From Armatimonadota bacterium (lineage in GTDB: Bacteria > Armatimonadota > Hebobacteria > GCA-020354555 > CP070648): DNA of 37,013 nucleotides. The position numbers and the translations under genes were made by a program. Below are positions 8,092 to 16,036 of this stretch, piece after piece; position 1 is the stretch's first letter, and the number at the start of each line of letters is the position of its first letter. The DNA lies in assembly GCA_035527535.1 (NCBI GenBank), contig DATLAK010000019.1, positions 1 through 37,013 of the forward strand, in the 5' to 3' direction. A model generated the notes under the pieces. It was not told where the DNA came from, did no database searches, and was given only the letters and a program-made list of their open reading frames with translations.

Positions 8092-8201
8092 GGCGGGCGT
8101 CTCGCCCGCCGGCATTCTCGCCCCGGCATGTCGGGGCGCCACCGGATGATTGCATCGTCAACCTACTTGGCGAAAGTCAATAGGGGCACAGCATGCTGTG
8201 C
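8092..8201. repeat. Cluster of three small palindromes upstream of the nucleotidyltransferase
   Basis: The 270-base gap 7970-8240 has no gene. It contains a hairpin GGCGGGCG/CGCCCGCC (8092-8110, three-base loop), a second CGCCCCG/CGGGGCG (8119-8138), and a copy of the GCACAGCATGCTGTGC palindrome (8186-8201) preceded by TAGGG. The first two behave like a REP pair. A TTGACA occurs at 8060-8065 but I find no matching -10 box. Confidence 0.75.
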
Positions 8202-8240
8202 ACAGCCTTTATGCCATTCCCGGTGGGCAAGGAGGGTCGT

Positions 8241-8984
8241 GTGGCCGACCAGGCGACGGTTAATCAATGGCTGGCGGAGTTCCTCGCCCGTCTGCGCCAG
8301 GCCTTCGGCCAGCGCCTGCTGTTCGTGGGCCACCACGGAAGTTGGGCGCGGGGCGAGGCGACGCCGGACAGCGACATTGACACCATGGTCATCCTCGATC
8401 ATATCGAGGCGGAGGATCTGGCCGCGTACCGGGACGTGATTAGCAACATGGCCGATGGGGGGCGGATGGCGAGCGGCCTTTTCAACTCGGTGGCGGAGAT
8501 GCAAGCGCGTCCGCGGTCGGAGGCGCCGGTGCAGTACTTCTATGGCTGCAAGGTGCTACACGGCAGCATGGCTGGCATAGTCGGGAAACCAACCAACGCT
8601 GACCTCATGCAGGATATCCGCGCGAAAGCCTCCTACAACCTGCTCGCCACGCGGCATTACTTGCTCTTCCCCCACGATTTGAGGCAGAAGGTGCACAGCC
8701 TGTGCTATCCGTTCAAGGAGTCCTTCTACGCCCTCCAGGAGTGGATACTCGTGCAGAGCAGCCAGTTCTTCGCGCGGAAGACTGACCTGTTGCAGGTCCT
8801 GAACGACGAAGATGACCGGGCCGTAGTTGCTGTGGCGCGCGACTGGCGCGAGAGCGAGGCTGACCGCACGGCAAGGCCCCTCTGCTACTTCGAGCTCCTC
8901 GAGCGCTGGAGCCGGAGCATGGTGGCGCGGGTCTCCGAACACGCCTCTCCCTCGCACGGAGAGGCTCCGACTTGTCGGGGATGA
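8241..8984 (+). CDS. Nucleotidyltransferase-domain protein with helical C-terminal half
   Basis: 247 residues from a GTG at 8241, chosen because AAGGAGG (8229-8235) lies five bases upstream. Residues 33-47 form the polymerase-beta-like catalytic motif GSWARGEATPDSDID (G-S then D-x-D), which binds Mg-NTP. The remainder is helical, with a KASYNLLATRHYLLF segment and FYALQEWILVQSSQF, somewhat like HEPN or KNTase C-terminal helices. Candidate roles are antibiotic or protein nucleotidylation; the substrate cannot be told from sequence. It stands alone, with no toxin-antitoxin partner. The last 15 or so residues are encoded by a palindromic repeat (8943-8965), so the natural C-terminus may have been altered. 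Confidence 0.75.
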   Translation: MADQATVNQWLAEFLARLRQAFGQRLLFVGHHGSWARGEATPDSDIDTMVILDHIEAEDLAAYRDVISNMADGGRMASGLFNSVAEMQARPRSEAPVQYFYGCKVLHGSMAGIVGKPTNADLMQDIRAKASYNLLATRHYLLFPHDLRQKVHSLCYPFKESFYALQEWILVQSSQFFARKTDLLQVLNDEDDRAVVAVARDWRESEADRTARPLCYFELLERWSRSMVARVSEHASPSHGEAPTCRG

Positions 8985-9165: not shown

Positions 9166-10035
9166 ATGCGTACATTATGGATGGTCGGAGTATGTGTCAT
9201 GGCGCTGGCGCTGGGCGGGGCGGCGTCGGCGGAGATGGTGCAGGGGCAGGTGACGACCATCGGGCACCCGATGATGTCGGTCAGCGGCACCGGCACGGTG
9301 GAGATCGCGCCCGACACCGCGCGCGTCACCGCCAGCATCATCACCGAGGGGGAGACGGTGGAGCAGGCGCGCGAGCGCAACGCCCAGATCGCGCAGCGAG
9401 CGATGGCGGCGGTCAAGGCGCTCAAGCTCCCCAACGCCACCACCAAGACCCTCGACTATACGATGGAGCGGGTCACCCGCGACGCCCGCGTGTCGCTCAA
9501 GGTGGACCCCGCGAAATGGGACATCCCGTGGAAGGTGTCGGGGATGGAGATCCGGGACTCCAACTTCGACGTCTCGGTGCCGGTGACGCTGGGGTATCGC
9601 GCCGCCAACAGCCTGACGGTGCGGCTGCAGGGCACGCGGGAGGAGCTGTCGGCGGGAACTGGCAAGGTCATTGACGCGCTGATGGCGGCGGGCACCAACC
9701 AGATCACCAGCGTCGCCTACTCCCTGGAGAAGGACGACCGCTCCGCCATGCGCGAGGCGCTGACCAGGGCAATGAAGGACGCGCAGGCGACGGCGGAGGC
9801 GGTGGCCGCCGCCGCGGGGCGCAAGATCGTCGGGGTGCGCAGCATCAATCCCGGCTACGCCCGCCCGTACATGGAATTGCGGCAGGTGCAGGCCACTTAC
9901 GCCGGCCGCTCGGCCGAGGCCGCGGCGACCCCCACCTCCGTCACCGCGGGCATGCTCGAGGTGACGGCGACGGTCAGCGTCAGCTACGAGCTGGACTACA
10001 ACGCGGGCGACACCAAGTTCCTGCCCGCGCCATAG
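9166..10035 (+). CDS. SIMPL (DUF541) domain protein, secreted
   Basis: 289 residues. Residues 1-22 are a signal peptide ending ASA before EM. The mature part begins with the family hallmark, a strand VSGTGTVEIAPDTARVTASIITEG (about 39-62). A helix of repeated Gln/Arg/Ala follows, then strands and LTRAMKDAQATAEAVAAAAG near the C-terminus, all features of SIMPL/BP26 proteins. These periplasmic or exported proteins form oligomeric channels or rings in some species; their biochemical role is poorly known. The ATG is preceded by a GGAGGGAG ribosome site (about six bases). There is no operon partner; the next gene is convergent. Confidence 0.9.
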   Translation: MRTLWMVGVCVMALALGGAASAEMVQGQVTTIGHPMMSVSGTGTVEIAPDTARVTASIITEGETVEQARERNAQIAQRAMAAVKALKLPNATTKTLDYTMERVTRDARVSLKVDPAKWDIPWKVSGMEIRDSNFDVSVPVTLGYRAANSLTVRLQGTREELSAGTGKVIDALMAAGTNQITSVAYSLEKDDRSAMREALTRAMKDAQATAEAVAAAAGRKIVGVRSINPGYARPYMELRQVQATYAGRSAEAAATPTSVTAGMLEVTATVSVSYELDYNAGDTKFLPAP

Positions 10036-10127: not shown

Positions 10128-10952
10128 CTAATTCTTTGCCCTCGCGCGCAGGGCGGCGCCGAGGGCGCCCACGAGTTGCGGGCCTTCGGGCACGCGAATG
10201 TCCACGCCCAGGCGCTCGCCGAGCAGTCGCACGATGCACGGATTGAGGGCCACGCCGCCCGCGAATACGACCTCGGGCCGCGCGCCGACGCGTCCCACCA
10301 TGATCGCCAGGCGGTCGGCGATGGCGTGATGAATGCCCAGCGCGATCTTGCGCGGGTGCTCATTCCGCGCGAGCAGCGAGATCACTTCGGTTTCGGCGAA
10401 GACGGTGCAGACGCTGCTGATGGCGACGGGGTGATCGGTGGCTAGGCCTTCGGCCGCCACGGCGGTCGCTGGCAGCGACCTAGCCGCCTCCAGCGCCGCG
10501 TCGCCGAAGGACTCGACGGAGAAGCCAAGCGCGCGCGCCATGATCTCGAGGAAGCGCCCGGTGCCGGCGGCGCAGCGGTCGTTCATCTCGAAGTCGCGAA
10601 AGCCTCCGCGCTCCTCGAGGGCGATGGCCTTGCTGTCCTGGCCGCCGACGTCAATGACGGTGCGGCACGCGGGGAAGAGATGCCGCGCGCCGAGGGCGTA
10701 AGCGGTGATCTCGGTGACGGCTTCGTGGGCGAAATCGGCGGCGGCGAGGTGGCGCCCGTAGCCGGTGGCGATGATGCGAGCGGGGTCATAGGGTTCGAGC
10801 AGCTTGCGCGCGCGCGCGGTCATGTCGGGCCCGGTGTCGGTAATCGCCGACCCGACTACCTGCCCGCGCTCCAGCACCACCACCTTGATCGTGCGCGAGC
10901 CCAGGTCCACGCCGGCGACCCCTCGGCTGCGCTCGGGGCAAGCCTGTTCCAC
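10128..10952 (-). CDS. BadF/BadG/HgdC-type activase (2-hydroxyacyl-CoA dehydratase activator)
   Basis: 274 residues of the ASKHA ATPase fold. Phosphate-1 motif GVDLGSRTIK (14-23), phosphate-2 DVGGQDSKAI (101-110), and the two cysteine signatures that in HgdC bridge a [4Fe-4S] cluster between two subunits: NDRCAAGTGRFLE (Cys127) and SVCTVFAETEVISLLA (Cys182). A C-terminal adenosine-binding FAGGVALNP follows. Such activases use ATP to inject an electron into 2-hydroxyacyl-CoA dehydratases or benzoyl-CoA reductases. No dehydratase subunit is in the window, so the partner is unknown. The GTG start at 10952 follows the purM stop by three bases, which makes it the last gene of the purine block. Its first residues (ACPERSRG) come from a dispersed DNA repeat. 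Confidence 0.88.
   Translation of the reverse strand: MEQACPERSRGVAGVDLGSRTIKVVVLERGQVVGSAITDTGPDMTARARKLLEPYDPARIIATGYGRHLAAADFAHEAVTEITAYALGARHLFPACRTVIDVGGQDSKAIALEERGGFRDFEMNDRCAAGTGRFLEIMARALGFSVESFGDAALEAARSLPATAVAAEGLATDHPVAISSVCTVFAETEVISLLARNEHPRKIALGIHHAIADRLAIMVGRVGARPEVVFAGGVALNPCIVRLLGERLGVDIRVPEGPQLVGALGAALRARAKN
10919..10943. repeat. Dispersed repeat encoding an in-frame CPERSRG peptide
   Basis: The segment reads, on the minus strand, GGCTTGCCCCGAGCGCAGCC followed by GAGGGG. It matches the style of dispersed short repeats that produce CPERSR-type peptides at protein ends in many environmental genomes (from memory). Here it forms codons 4-11 of the activase gene without breaking the frame. 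Confidence 0.55.
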
Positions 10953-10955
10953 TGC

Positions 10956-12005
10956 CTACCCTATCTCCACCGCGCGCTCGCCGCGGACGATCTCGCCCAG
11001 GTGGTAGCATGGCTCGCCGGCGCGCGCCAGGCGCTCGCAGACCTCCTCGGCCCGCGCGCCCTCCACCACGAGGACGAGGCCGATGCCCATGTTGAAGGTG
11101 TGGAACATCTCCTCGTCGGAGACCCGCGCGCGGTCGCGGATGAGGTCGAAGATGGGCGGCACGATCCACGCGCCGCGGCGGATGACGGCGCGGCAGCCCG
11201 CGGGCAGGACGCGCCGCAGGTTGTCGGGGATGCCGCCGCCGGTGATGTGGGCGACGCCGCGCACCGTGTCGTCGGCCAGCAGCGGCAGCACCGCCGGCGC
11301 ATAGCTGCGGTGGACGCGCAGCAGCTCGTCGGCGACGGTGCCGCCCAGGGATTCGACGGTATCGTCGGGCTTGTATCCCGCGATCTCGAACAGCGCCTTG
11401 CGCGCCAGCGAGTAGCCGTTGGTGTGCAGGCCATTGGAGGCCAGGCCGAGCAGTACATCGCCCGGGGCGACCTTCTCGCCGGTGATGATGCGCCCGCGCT
11501 CGACCGCGCCCACGATGAAGCCCGCGAGGTCGTATTCGCCCGCGGCATAGAACCCGGGCAGCTCCGCCGTCTCGCCGCCGATGAGGGCGCACCCGGCGTT
11601 CTCGCAGCCGCGCGCCAGGCCGGTGATGATGGCCTCGAACACATCGCCGTCGAGCTTGCCGACCCCCAGGTAATCCAGGAAGAACAGCGGCCGCGCCCCC
11701 TGGCACAGGATGTCGTTGACGCAGTGGTTGACCAGGTCCTCGCCCACCGTGTCGTGGCGGTTGGTCATGAAGGCGACCTTGAGCTTGGTGCCGACGCTGT
11801 CACAACTCGACACGAGCACGGGATCTTCAAGGTCGGGCGGCACCGCAAACAGCGCGCCGAAGGTGCCGATGTCGGCCAGCACCTGGGGGGTGAACGTGCG
11901 GCGCAGGTGGGGCTTGGCGCGGTCGAGGGCGCGTTCGGCGGCCTCGATATCCACCCCCGCGTCACGATAGGTCATGGGTTGGCCGGGCGGCTTCGCTTTC
12001 TTCAT
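10956..12005 (-). CDS. purM: Phosphoribosylformylglycinamidine cyclo-ligase (AIR synthetase)
   Basis: 349 residues, the usual length. It closes the imidazole ring, turning FGAM plus ATP into AIR, step five of purine synthesis. It begins MKKAKPPGQPMTYRDAGVDIEAAERAL, then TFGALFAV, CDSVGTKLKVA, NDILCQGARPLFFLDYLGVGKLD, the glycine-rich ATP-binding IGGETAELPG and HITGGGIPDNL, and ends EIVRGERAVEI, all canonical. The ATG at 12005 overlaps the purF stop in an ATGA, so translation is probably coupled. It lies directly after purF, following purL. Confidence 0.97.
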   Translation of the reverse strand: MKKAKPPGQPMTYRDAGVDIEAAERALDRAKPHLRRTFTPQVLADIGTFGALFAVPPDLEDPVLVSSCDSVGTKLKVAFMTNRHDTVGEDLVNHCVNDILCQGARPLFFLDYLGVGKLDGDVFEAIITGLARGCENAGCALIGGETAELPGFYAAGEYDLAGFIVGAVERGRIITGEKVAPGDVLLGLASNGLHTNGYSLARKALFEIAGYKPDDTVESLGGTVADELLRVHRSYAPAVLPLLADDTVRGVAHITGGGIPDNLRRVLPAGCRAVIRRGAWIVPPIFDLIRDRARVSDEEMFHTFNMGIGLVLVVEGARAEEVCERLARAGEPCYHLGEIVRGERAVEIG

Positions 12006-13474
12006 CCAGGTTGCTCCAGGGCCGTCTTCTGCGCCAGCAGTTCGTCGGAGACCTCGATCGGGTACTCGCCCTCGAGGCAGGCCATGCACAGCGATTCACG
12101 GGGCAAGCCGACCGCGCGCACGAGGCCGTCGGCGCTGAGGTAGCCGAGGCTGTCGGCGCCGATTTCCCGGCGGATGTCGTCGAGGCAGGAGGCGCGGGCG
12201 GCGATGAGGGTGCCGCGGGCGCTGGTGTCCACCCCGTAGAAGCACGGGTAGCGGTAGGGCGGGGCGGTGATGCGCACGTGCACCTCGGCGGCGCCGGCGT
12301 CGCGCAGCAGGCCCACGGTCTGGGCCTTGGTGGTGCCGCGGATGATGGTATCGTCAATAACCACCAGGCGCTTGCCCTCCACCTCCTGGTGGAGGGAGGC
12401 GTACTTGAGTCGTGCGCCTTGCTCGCGCATGCGCTGGTCGGGCTGGATGAAGGTGCGGCCGATGTAGCGGTTGCGGATTAGCCCCTGCCCCAAGGGTATG
12501 CCCGCGGCCTCGGCATAGCCGATGGCGGCGGGCCACCCGGTCTCGGGCACCGGAATCGCCAGGTCCGCCGCCGCCGGATGCTCGGCCGCCAGCGCGTGGC
12601 CCATACGCCGGCGCGCCTGGTGCAGCAGGACGCCGGCGATGACGCTGTCGGGCCGCGCGAAGTAGATGAACTCGAACACGCACAATGCCGGGCGCTGCGG
12701 CTCCAGCAGTTGCACCGAGCGCAGGCCGTCGCGACCCACGATGACCAGCTCTCCGCGCTCGACCTCGCGCACGAGGCGCGCGCCCAGCACCGGCAACGCG
12801 CAGCTCTCGGAGGCGATGACGCAGCGCCCCGCGTCCAGTTCGCCGATGCACAGCGGGCGCACCCCCCACGGGTCGCGCAGCGCCAGCAAGCGCCCCTCGC
12901 GGTCGCCCGGCCCGAGCCCATCGGTCAGCATGGTCAGGGAATACGAGCCCTGGCAGGCGGAGGCGGCGGCGCGAATGGCGTCCTGGAAAGTGGGCGCGGT
13001 GTCGGCCTCAAGCGCGATGAGCTTGGCGATGATCTCGCTGTCGGTGGTGGATTCGAGGTGAATGCCGGCGGCGTTCAGCCGCTGGCGCAGCTCCGGGGCG
13101 TTGACCAGGCTGCCGTTGTGGCCCAGCGCCAGGTTGGCGCCGAACCCCGGCACCGGCGTCAGCAGCGGCTGCGCGTTGGCAGGGTGGCTGCCGCCCATGG
13201 TCGAGTAGCGGTTGTGGCCGATGGCCGCATCGCCCCCGAGCAGGGCCAAGGTGTCCTCGTCGAACACCTGCATGACCAGACCCATGCCGCGGTGGAGCTT
13301 GAGCTTGCCGCCACCGGTGACCGCAATCCCCGCGCTCTCCTCACCGCGGTGCTGGAGCTGGATGAGGCCGAAGTATGCCATGCGCGCGACGTCTTCGCCG
13401 GGCGAGAAGACGCCGAAGACCCCGCAGGATTCGCGGGGGGCCTCATGTCGGGACGCAGAGCAGGGCCTGTGCAT
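12002..13474 (-). CDS. purF: Amidophosphoribosyltransferase
   Basis: About 490 residues. It catalyses the first committed step, PRPP plus glutamine to phosphoribosylamine. After a short propeptide comes the catalytic cysteine in ESCGVFGVFSPGED (Cys17). The Ntn glutaminase domain follows (LQHRGEESAGIA, GHNRYSTMG, LGHNGSLVN). The phosphoribosyltransferase domain has the PRPP loop VVIDDTIIRGTT. Cysteines in CVFEFIYFARPDS, PCFYGVDT and LCMACLEGEYP match the four Fe-S ligands of Bacillus-type PurF, so it should be a propeptide-processed [4Fe-4S] enzyme. ATGs at 13474 and 13483 are both possible starts; neither has a good ribosome site, and a GC-rich hairpin (13487-13509) precedes them. It overlaps purM by ATGA. 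Confidence 0.97.
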   Translation of the reverse strand: MHRPCSASRHEAPRESCGVFGVFSPGEDVARMAYFGLIQLQHRGEESAGIAVTGGGKLKLHRGMGLVMQVFDEDTLALLGGDAAIGHNRYSTMGGSHPANAQPLLTPVPGFGANLALGHNGSLVNAPELRQRLNAAGIHLESTTDSEIIAKLIALEADTAPTFQDAIRAAASACQGSYSLTMLTDGLGPGDREGRLLALRDPWGVRPLCIGELDAGRCVIASESCALPVLGARLVREVERGELVIVGRDGLRSVQLLEPQRPALCVFEFIYFARPDSVIAGVLLHQARRRMGHALAAEHPAAADLAIPVPETGWPAAIGYAEAAGIPLGQGLIRNRYIGRTFIQPDQRMREQGARLKYASLHQEVEGKRLVVIDDTIIRGTTKAQTVGLLRDAGAAEVHVRITAPPYRYPCFYGVDTSARGTLIAARASCLDDIRREIGADSLGYLSADGLVRAVGLPRESLCMACLEGEYPIEVSDELLAQKTALEQPG

Positions 13475-13486
13475 GCTGGACATATC

Positions 13487-13560
13487 GGGCAGGAGGCCAG
13501 CTCCTGCCCTACGCCTTTCCGTCCATGTCAATCTGCGTCATCTGCGAAATCTGCGGATCA
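13487..13560. repeat. purL-purF intercistronic palindrome and CTGCG-type repeat
   Basis: GGGCAGGAG (13487-13495) pairs with CTCCTGCCC (13501-13509) over a five-base loop immediately upstream of purF. Beyond it, 13530-13560 holds AATCTGCGTCATCTGCGAAA followed by TCTGCGGATCA, a short-period repeat also found at 15798-15816, 16003-16036 and 17145-17218. Confidence 0.75.
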
Positions 13561-13566
13561 TCTCCG

Positions 13567-15780
13567 CTACCCCATCAACCCCGGGATCGCGCCCTCGTAG
13601 GCCGGTTCCATCTCGGCCACCGGCAAGTCAATGATACCCGCGCCGGAAGCTGATTCAATGCGCAGGCTGTCGCCGCCGACCTTGCCAATGAGCGCCCACG
13701 GCGCGCCCTGGGACTCGGCGATGCGGGTTACCGCCTCCACCTCCTGCGGGCGCACCGCCAGGACGATGCGCGATTGGCTCTCGCCGAAGAGCGCGGCGTC
13801 GAGGCGAATGTCTGCCGGGCCCGCAGGGAGCCTGATTTCCGCGCCGAGGTTGCCGCGGATGCACATTTCCGCCAGCGCCACCGCCAGCCCGCCGTCCGCG
13901 CAATCGTGGGCCGAGCGCACCAGCCCCGCGCGGATCGCCGCCAGGCACGCCGCCTGCACCGCCTGCTCGCGCCCCAGGTCGAGCGCCGGGGGATGACCCG
14001 CCTCCAGCCCGTGGGCGAGGGCCAGGTACTCGCTGCCGCCCAGCTCGTCGCGGCTCTCACCGAGCAGGATAATCTCGTCGCCCGCCTCCTTGAAATCAAT
14101 CGTCGCGCGGCGCTCAAGGTCTTCGATCACCCCCACCAGGCCGATCACCGGCGTGGGGTAGATCGCGTCGGCCTGACTCTCGTTGTAGAAGCTGACATTG
14201 CCGCTCACCACCGGCAGACGGAAGGCGCGACAGGCCGCCACCAGCCCCTCTACCGCGCGGCGGAACTGCCAGAAGCGGTCGGGCTTCTCGGGGTTGCCGA
14301 AGTTGAGGCCGTCGGTGATGCCCGCCGGCTCGGCGCCGGTGCAGACGACGTTGCGCGCGGCCTCGGCGACCGCGATCTGCGCGCCGACGTAGGGATCGAG
14401 ATAGCAGTAGCGGCTGTTGCAGTCGGTGGTCACCGCGATCCCGTGGGGCGTGCCCTTGATGCGCAGCACCGCCGCGTCACCGCCGGGCAAGACGACGGTG
14501 TTAACCTGCACCATGTGGTCGTACTGCTCCCACACCCAGCGCTTGCTGGCGAGGTTGGGGCTCGCCAGCAGGTCGAGCAAGACGCGACCGTAGTCCCGGG
14601 GCAGCCGCAGCGCCGACAGGTCGCGGGCCTGTACCTCGCGCAGGTGCGGCGGCTCCTCGACCGGCATGTCATAGGTAGGCGGGCTGGCGAGCTCTTGCGC
14701 GTCCATCTCGGCCACGACCTTGCCGTTGTCGCGGACGCGCAGGATGCCGTCGTCGGTGACGCGGCCGATGACGACCGCGTTGAGGTCCCACTTGTGGAAA
14801 ATGGCGGCGACGCGATCTTCCCCGCCGGCCTTAACCGCGAGGAGCATCCGCTCCTGGGACTCCGACATCATCAGCTCGTAGGGTTCCATGCCCGCCTCGC
14901 GCCGCGGCACCAGCGCGAGATCCACATCCATGCCCGTGCCGGCGGCGGCGGCCATCTCGCAGGTGGTGCAGGTCAGCCCTGCCGCGCCCATGTCCTTCAT
15001 GCCGACGATGGCGCCGGTATCCAGCGCCTCCAGGCAGGCCTCGATCAGGCACTTCTCGGTAAAGGGATCGCCGATCTGCACCGTCGGGCGCTTCTCCTCG
15101 TCCGCGCCGAACTCGTGGCTGGCCAGCACGCTGCAGCCGCCGATGCCGTCGCGCCCGGTGGAGGAGCCGACGTACATGACCGCGTTGCCGGGGCCGTCGG
15201 CGCGGCCGAGGACGATGCGGTCGGTGGGGACGACGCCGACGCACATGACATTGACCAGGCAGTTGCCGCGGTAGCAGCGGTTGAAATAGACCTCGCCGCC
15301 GACGGTGGGGACGCCGACGCAGTTGCCGTAGAACTGGATGCCGTCCACCACGCCCGTGAAAAGGAACCGGGCCAGGCTGGTCTCCAGCTCGCCGAAGCGC
15401 AGCGAGTTGAGGCAGGCGATGGGGCGCGCGCCCATGGTGAAGATGTCGCGGATGATCCCCCCCACGCCGGTGGCCGCGCCCTGCTTGGGCTCGACCTGGG
15501 AGGGGTGGTTGTGGCTTTCGAGCTTGAACAGGACGGTGATGCCGGGGGCGATCTCGACCCCCCCCGCGTCGCCCGCGACCTGGGGTGCGAACTTGCCCTC
15601 GCGCGGCAGCAGTCCCAGCAGCGGCCGCGAGCGCGGGTAGCCGCAGTGCTCCGACCACTCGACCGAGAACATCGCCAGCTCCGTCGGCGTCGGCTCCCGC
15701 CCCAGCAACTGCTCGATTCGCTGGTATTCCTCGTCCTTGAGGCCCAACTCGCGATAGACAGCGGGTTCGATCATGTCCAT
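13567..15780 (-). CDS. purL: Phosphoribosylformylglycinamidine synthase, small-type PurL subunit
   Basis: About 737 residues, the length of the PurL that works with separate PurS and PurQ. It converts FGAR, ATP and ammonia from PurQ to FGAM. Visible family blocks: FSVEWSEHCGYPRSRPLL near the N-terminus, LFKLESHNHPSQVEP, GAATGVGGIIRDIFTMGARPIA, YVGSSTGRDGIGG, MKDMGAAGLTCTTCEMAA, then the second half with GITDGLNFGNPEKP, VVSGNVSFYNES, SAHDCADGGLAVALAEM and LFGESQSR. The usual EHCSYKSSR appears here as EHCGYPRSR, a small variation. ATGs at 15780 and 15774 are both possible starts. It lies between purQ and purF but is separated from each by repeat-filled gaps. Confidence 0.97.
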   Translation of the reverse strand: MDMIEPAVYRELGLKDEEYQRIEQLLGREPTPTELAMFSVEWSEHCGYPRSRPLLGLLPREGKFAPQVAGDAGGVEIAPGITVLFKLESHNHPSQVEPKQGAATGVGGIIRDIFTMGARPIACLNSLRFGELETSLARFLFTGVVDGIQFYGNCVGVPTVGGEVYFNRCYRGNCLVNVMCVGVVPTDRIVLGRADGPGNAVMYVGSSTGRDGIGGCSVLASHEFGADEEKRPTVQIGDPFTEKCLIEACLEALDTGAIVGMKDMGAAGLTCTTCEMAAAAGTGMDVDLALVPRREAGMEPYELMMSESQERMLLAVKAGGEDRVAAIFHKWDLNAVVIGRVTDDGILRVRDNGKVVAEMDAQELASPPTYDMPVEEPPHLREVQARDLSALRLPRDYGRVLLDLLASPNLASKRWVWEQYDHMVQVNTVVLPGGDAAVLRIKGTPHGIAVTTDCNSRYCYLDPYVGAQIAVAEAARNVVCTGAEPAGITDGLNFGNPEKPDRFWQFRRAVEGLVAACRAFRLPVVSGNVSFYNESQADAIYPTPVIGLVGVIEDLERRATIDFKEAGDEIILLGESRDELGGSEYLALAHGLEAGHPPALDLGREQAVQAACLAAIRAGLVRSAHDCADGGLAVALAEMCIRGNLGAEIRLPAGPADIRLDAALFGESQSRIVLAVRPQEVEAVTRIAESQGAPWALIGKVGGDSLRIESASGAGIIDLPVAEMEPAYEGAIPGLMG

Positions 15781-15797
15781 TATCCGCAGGAGGCGCC

Positions 15798-16036
15798 ATC
15801 CACAGATCACACAGATGGGGACAAGATCAGCCGCCGACGAACGCCGATAGACGCCGATGACAGCCACCGTAGGGGCACAGCATGCTGTGCCCGAGACGTA
15901 GGGGCGCAGTTCACTGCGCCCAATCTGGATGGGCGTGATGTCCCTAGGTCAGAGACCGGGATGGCGGCCTTGAGGCCTAGCCAAATCACACCCCTACATC
16001 TTCGCAGTCTGTGTAATCTATGTAATCTGTGGATTA
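15798..16036. repeat. purQ-purL intercistronic repeat block with inverted ends
   Basis: The 269-base gap between purQ and purL has no gene. Its ends are inverted copies of one motif: ATCCACAGATCACACAGAT (15798-15816) faces TCTATGTAATCTGTGGATTA near 16017-16036. Between them lie a run of GACGAACGCCGATAGACGCC type, a perfect palindrome GGGCACAGCATGCTGTGCCC (15873-15892), and GGGCGCAGT/ACTGCGCCC (15902-15921). The layout resembles a composite MITE or nested insertions of several short repeats. Confidence 0.8.

Follow-up and report, generated by a model that had tools for sequence, protein, structure and literature searches.

A stand-alone dehydratase activase in an Armatimonadota genome and a candidate iron-sulfur route to preQ1

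The activase locus

The window analyzed here is a 37,013-nucleotide stretch of DNA from an Armatimonadota bacterium (contig DATLAK010000019.1). On its reverse strand, at 10128-10952, an open reading frame of 274 amino acids with a GTG start encodes an intact acyl-CoA-dehydratase-type activase, which matched both TIGR00241 (CoA_E_activ; 220.1 bits, cut-off 125.4) and PF01869 (174.1 bits, cut-off 31.5) over its full length. The protein also matched the solved activases 4eht (E 3e-48) and 1hux (E 7.1e-44). Alignment to these structures placed residues C127 (in NDRCAAGTG, 10572-10574) and C182 (in SSVCTVFAE, 10407-10409) on the CAAGTG and CTVFAE motifs, whose cysteines are presumably the ligands of the inter-subunit [4Fe-4S] cluster, and located the nucleotide-binding motifs DLGSRTIK (10884-10907) and DVGGQDSK (10629-10652), all on the reverse strand. 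An initial sequence-only reading of the window had credited the gene with all activase motifs and both cluster cysteines, and had placed its start three bases after purM; the profile scores, the alignment, and the junction itself (...TAG GCA GTG..., in which the activase starts three bases past the purM stop) bear out both points. HgdC and HadI (PDB 1hux and 4eht) share the family, length, ATPase motifs, and cluster cysteines of the window activase, but the latter has approximately 16 additional residues ahead of the second cysteine, no adjoining dehydratase subunits, and a repeat-derived N-terminus. The NCBIfam equivalogs for benzoyl-CoA reductase A/D/Q and methanogenesis marker 15 scored 95.5-120.5 bits, below their cut-offs of 312.85-578, and assignment to an HgdABC system is not indicated either, as no two HGD-D subunits lie beside the gene and the genome's one PF06050 protein is encoded on another contig.

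A 25-base repeat that is dispersed through the genome (GCTTGCCCCGAGCGCAGCCGAGGGG, 10919-10943, reverse strand) is read in frame at the N-terminus, with 10920-10943 encoding ACPERSRG as residues 4-11. This repeat DNA is present in a single copy within the window, and its 18-base core, with two or fewer mismatches allowed, matched 17 places genome-wide compared to 5 for the reversed control. Flanks were examined at 10 of the 17 places, including that of the window, and GCYTGYCCYGAGYGNAGYCGARKGG was common to 7 of these and absent in 3. The sequence-only reading had proposed a repeat-derived N-terminus, which holds for a dispersed repeat joined in frame, but not for ACPERSRG being the very first residues. 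The activase of the sister genus (genome G001) instead has the repeat-free sequence MQEGKPTVAGLDLG, and because this N-terminus is different, it is probable that the window's lineage acquired the repeat as a new start of the gene.

Three purine genes precede the activase on its strand: purL (13567-15867), purF (12002-13531), and purM (10956-12089; TIGR00878, 391.5 bits), the last a direct neighbor with only putative membership in the system. The gene order around stand-alone activases was compared across genomes. The activase search covered 101 genomes, including the window's own, and produced a match in 54; the highest-scoring stand-alone activase was taken in 26 (L001 and L086-L110), leaving out lower-scoring short-frame matches such as those of G002, G004, G006, G026, G039, G052, and G065. 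For the 25 other than the window's, flanks extended to approximately 7 kb, or less at contig ends. Among the 26 genomes, purM was beside the activase only in the window genome and in G001, where approximately 220 bp separate the two genes. The G001 activase (L133:6852-7625, reverse strand) contains an internal TAG and changes near the cluster motif, and thus appears to be either a broken gene or the product of a sequence error. A conserved purM-activase operon was therefore ruled out; the purM link is local, and the tie to purine synthesis drawn in the sequence-only reading finds no support as a conserved link.

On the forward strand of the window, a SIMPL/DUF541 protein (9166-10035) converges on the activase, and a nucleotidyltransferase-domain protein (PF01909) is encoded at 8193-8984, with weak matches to aminoglycoside nucleotidyltransferases that fall far below cut-off.

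A candidate partner encoded on another contig

A PF06050 profile search of the whole genome (G000), the window contig included, returned one match, at C182:1439-2389, in keeping with the earlier observation that no dehydratase subunits lie in the window. This protein, here termed Q-HgdB, is the genome's sole HGD-D protein (contig C182, L005:1415-2410) and scored 114.8 bits on PF06050 against a gathering cut-off of 28.4. It belongs to a single-gene HGD-D subfamily other than that of the dehydratases activated by HgdC and HadI, with approximately 330 residues and three invariant cysteines (C52, C78, and C281, invariant across 16 aligned Q-HgdB proteins). The first 16 kb of contig C182, whose end lies 1.4 kb from the Q-HgdB gene, yielded no activase. 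The window activase is likewise the genome's one stand-alone activase, apart from a long fused protein on contig C90. Because each is the only one of its kind in the genome, we paired the two, and propose that the window activase may supply electrons to Q-HgdB in an ATP-driven manner. The activase is thus probably not partnerless: between the two options of the sequence-only reading, a distant partner is favored by the sole PF06050 protein and the lack of an activase in the part of its contig searched, and a different electron-transfer role is less favored. Of the partner types for which that reading had suggested a search, one HGD-D protein was found, and DUF2229 (PF09989) occurs within the fused protein.

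The fused protein on contig C90 (L172:5566-10062) has 1499 amino acids and contains PF01869 and PF09989 (DUF2229) domains; many other members of the phylum encode long fused relatives.

The proposed pair resembles DCCP/DCCP-R (PDB 6eno and 7yyl) in consisting of one HGD-D protein and one activase, and the Q-HgdB profile matched 7yyl at 5e-15. Of the HGD-D proteins that adjoin the tree neighbors of the window activase, L137 was the one compared with 7yyl (E 1.7e-144). However, a double-cubane protein as the partner was ruled out by NCBIfam score and cysteine columns. Q-HgdB scored 29.2 bits on the DCCP model NF040772, against a cut-off of 350. Of the seven cysteine columns invariant in such neighbor-type HGD-D proteins (7 of 12 were used in this comparison), Q-HgdB keeps three in 18/18 rows, with a fourth cysteine in 15/18. 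A Q-HgdB search of phages and viral contigs returned no match.

When the 101 genomes were searched with Q-HgdB, 14 scored at 322 bits or more and were counted as positive, while four matches under 22 bits were counted as negative. Each of the 14 positive genomes also encodes a high-scoring activase that stands alone, no HGD-D protein having been found next to it. The remaining 12 of the 26 stand-alone activases adjoin an HGD-D protein, and their genomes lack a strong Q-HgdB match. The Q-HgdB and activase genes lie on different contigs in the window genome and approximately 29 kb apart in G001, where the Q-HgdB frame is open while that of the activase is interrupted. A tree of the activases did not support one dedicated clade, as the orphan label changes four times, indicating that orphan activases arose or persisted more than once. 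The window and G001 activases group with activases that mostly adjoin HGD-D proteins.

Queuosine genes and the absence of QueF

In the window genome, QueC, QueD, and QueA scored over their NCBIfam cut-offs and QueH was recognized by PF02677 (175.2 bits), with no family assigned by NCBIfam. QueE was not found within the stretches examined, and QueF (PF14489) had no match in the genome. The same pattern extends to all 14 Q-HgdB genomes: QueC (presence line 60 bits or more) and QueA were each found in 14/14, QueG in 4, and QueH in the other 10, with no strong QueF in any of them (one, G099, gave 20.9 bits, below cut-off). Across the 101 genomes, QueC was present in 60, QueA in 93, and QueF over cut-off in 45, of which 44 were counted as QueF-positive at 98 bits or more and G091 (27.5 bits) was left out. 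Among the 58 genomes with both QueC and QueA, Q-HgdB was present in 14 of the 24 without QueF and in none of the 34 with QueF (Fisher p 1.9e-7, with relatedness ignored), and it was found in 0/41 genomes without QueC. The 14 Q-HgdB genomes fall into six families and the 44 QueF genomes into fourteen, with zero overlap. Among the six genomes of family f20 in the set, G074 and G093 are without QueC, Q-HgdB, and a stand-alone activase, G093 additionally being without QueA; the other four have all three.

Ten genomes with QueC and QueA have neither QueF nor Q-HgdB, implying that the absence of QueF has at least one other solution. Seven of these (G003, G005, G007, G009, G010, G011, and G012) form one family in the window's class and all have QueH; the other three (G018, G044, and G065) have no QueH. 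In one member of family f3, G012, a DUF366-queE pair is kept, and no HGD-D protein was recognized among the open reading frames after it. These ten genomes must use another route, possibly a third way to preQ1, or else their QueF escapes the model.

The surroundings of the Q-HgdB genes also point to queuosine synthesis. A radical-SAM queE-like gene adjoins or overlaps Q-HgdB in 12 of the 14 loci, all from the same phylum, the two exceptions being the window genome and its sister G001; beyond it there is a DUF366 gene at 8 loci and queD at 4. For the adjacent radical-SAM genes that were scanned (two of the 12, as well as that of a further Armatimonadota genome, G101), the best matches were QueE models, at scores below their cut-offs.

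Two other genes recur at these loci. DUF366 is present in L163-L170 (e.g., L164:7708-8277, reverse strand), with PF04017 found in the one scanned and a solved relative in 2ddz; it also lies beside queE in G012 (L223), and may be an uncharacterized queuosine-related protein. The tyrosine--tRNA ligase gene tyrS, confirmed as such in the two checked, lies near Q-HgdB in 7 of the 14 loci (L158, L163, L164, L167, L169, L170, and L171); tRNA-Tyr is a queuosine tRNA.

A wider set of genomes, reached by using 50 of 80 activase loci, was also searched with Q-HgdB. Of these 48 genomes, five scored at 208 bits or more: an Armatimonadota, a Planctomycetota, a Dehalococcoidales, a Deltaproteobacteria, and an uncultured bacterium. 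A QueF search of 42 of these genomes, leaving out six reached via archaeal loci, gave scores over cut-off in 0/5 with Q-HgdB compared to 25/37 without it, G141 giving 26.2 bits, below cut-off. QueH was found in four of the five. In G101, the Armatimonadota genome, queE-like and queD genes adjoin Q-HgdB as well; no queE-like gene lies beside it in G106, G119, G124, or the two contig-end pieces of G141. The activases that led to G106, G119, and G124 (L010, L042, and L051) have HGD-D neighbors of their own, so their pairing with Q-HgdB is tentative, and among the activases from the further Q-HgdB genomes only L084 was labeled orphan in the tree, with L010, L042, L051, and L076 labeled "other". 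L084 fell next to a same-class genome there, a position that suggested Armatimonadota for the window.

The strongest single clue comes from the plasmid collection, in which the one Q-HgdB record was pILYOP01 of Ilyobacter polytropus DSM 2926. Here, a Q-HgdB gene (ILYOP_RS11680; 41% identical) and an activase gene (ILYOP_RS11675) are neighbors inside the preQ0 gene set, in the order Q-HgdB-activase-queD-queE-folE-queC on one strand. Two Clostridia replicons, from Lachnospira eligens and Monoglobus pectinilyticus and chosen from the 40 QueF-bearing records in the collection, have the order queD-queE-folE-queC-queF. The Ilyobacter record, which covers the megaplasmid only, is not among these 40. 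The window and Ilyobacter activases, however, are only 29% identical.

We also looked for preQ1 riboswitches. At gathering level, Rfam returned no match on the window or across 12 loci; in 11 more loci it returned three tRNA, one tRNA-Sec, and one TPP riboswitch, and no preQ1 riboswitch. Upstream of the Ilyobacter Q-HgdB gene there is a structured leader (L236:7865-7980, forward strand; z -4.43) with terminator-like hairpins. It has a full-length, sub-threshold match to PreQ1-I (12.3 bits compared to a threshold of 39; E 1.7 to 3.3) that is gone at E of 5 or less when a wider stretch is searched. A preQ1 riboswitch was thus set aside as support, with the Ilyobacter match regarded as a hint and left uncounted.

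A proposed ATP-driven preQ0 reductase

Based on the distribution and gene order described above, it appears reasonably likely that the activase and Q-HgdB together constitute an ATP-driven iron-sulfur reductase that converts 7-cyano-7-deazaguanine (preQ0) to preQ1 in place of QueF. From these comparisons we infer the pairing in the window genome, the step catalyzed (the missing one), the cluster type, and the chemistry. In known activases, the dimer holds one [4Fe-4S] cluster, and ATP hydrolysis drives low-potential electrons one at a time. The proposed dimer would likewise bind one [4Fe-4S] cluster with C127 and C182 from both subunits as ligands, and ATP hydrolysis would deliver low-potential electrons singly to a three-cysteine [4Fe-4S] cluster of Q-HgdB (C52, C78, and C281), where the nitrile of preQ0 would be reduced to give preQ1. 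PMC5372742 describes QueF as carrying out a four-electron reduction of preQ0 with NADPH; a stepwise route would take four ATP-driven transfers. According to PMC11971306, the BzdO active site holds a [4Fe-4S] cluster on three cysteines and a water or hydroxide, and its authors describe how new functions can arise when a double-cubane ancestor loses a sub-cluster. With this precedent and the three invariant cysteines of Q-HgdB, the simplest reading is an open-site, three-cysteine cluster fed by the activase. The class I benzoyl-CoA reductase BzdNO may be comparable in this respect: BzdO has a three-cysteine [4Fe-4S] cluster and Q-HgdB three invariant cysteines, but BzdNO is a heterodimer with an extra double-cubane subunit, a CoA substrate, and a catabolic role.

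QueF catalyzes the reaction proposed here. It contains no metal, uses no ATP, and has a fold unrelated to that of the proposed enzyme; PMC5372742 describes it as a T-fold enzyme that forms a covalent thioimide. Non-homologous enzymes at one queuosine step have a precedent in QueG and QueH, which act at another step and have other folds. These two are unrelated epoxyqueuosine reductases.

Several other explanations could account for parts of these data. The window activase could be a relic or general-purpose protein derived from a double-cubane (DCCP) type operon and serving another acceptor, with the link to Q-HgdB a coincidence of orphans. This would fit the position of the window and G001 activases in the tree, the interruption of the G001 copy, and the separation of the two genes in both genomes. 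However, the window copy is intact, no second PF06050 gene occurs in a genome that is 95.75% complete, and Q-HgdB co-occurs with 14/14 orphan activases compared to 0/12 of those with their own HGD-D neighbor, and we consider this explanation unlikely. It is improbable that these genomes encode a QueF that PF14489 misses because of its divergence, or that preQ1 is salvaged, with Q-HgdB and queE making another deazaguanine product. The ten relatives that keep QueA and QueC without QueF and Q-HgdB do show that unseen routes exist, but PF14489 detects QueF in 44/101 and 25/42 genomes with scores of at least 72 bits, none of them with Q-HgdB, and no family is common to the six with Q-HgdB and the fourteen with QueF.

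The co-occurrence and neighborhood data would also fit if Q-HgdB and the activase acted at another queuosine step, such as epoxyqueuosine reduction in tRNA, and enzymes of the HGD-D superfamily typically remove an oxygen function reductively. Nevertheless, that step is already covered by QueG or QueH in all 14 genomes, the conversion of preQ0 to preQ1 is the searched step for which no enzyme was detected in any of them, and the Ilyobacter genes sit among those forming preQ0, which makes this option quite improbable. We regard it as very improbable that the activase instead supports the 1499-amino-acid protein on contig C90: although that protein, with its activase and DUF2229 domains, is present in the genome and has relatives in many others, it has activase domains of its own, and G005, G007, and G009 show long-frame matches only, with no stand-alone activase.

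Returning to the preQ0 reductase reading, we know of no member of the HGD-D superfamily reported in tRNA-modification biosynthesis, and Q-HgdB would be the first. Literature searches, whose coverage excludes most subscription journals, returned no report of double-cubane or 2-hydroxyacyl-CoA dehydratase proteins in queuosine synthesis, and no other title among those listed names such an enzyme. For a double-cubane cluster and a nitrile, they returned only a computational study of, by its title, synthetic cubanes. In 2017, PMC5372742 described the QueF reaction as the only known biological nitrile reduction. A more general proposal, which we hold to be slightly better than an even prospect, is that a second nitrile reductase exists, an ATP-dependent, presumably oxygen-sensitive HGD-D enzyme with a three-cysteine [4Fe-4S] cluster that works with this activase to supply preQ1 in QueF-less lineages of several phyla.

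Replacement of QueF is a role outside the two options of the initial sequence-only reading, and the Ilyobacter gene set makes the idea testable in a named strain. If correct, Q-HgdB and its activase would represent a second natural way of nitrile reduction, a two-protein system in which ATP-driven transfer of low-potential electrons is tied to nitrile chemistry. A non-homologous iron-sulfur route would then fill the preQ1 gap in QueF-less genomes that have the queuosine pathway, and a branch of the HgdB/DCCP superfamily would gain a physiological substrate.
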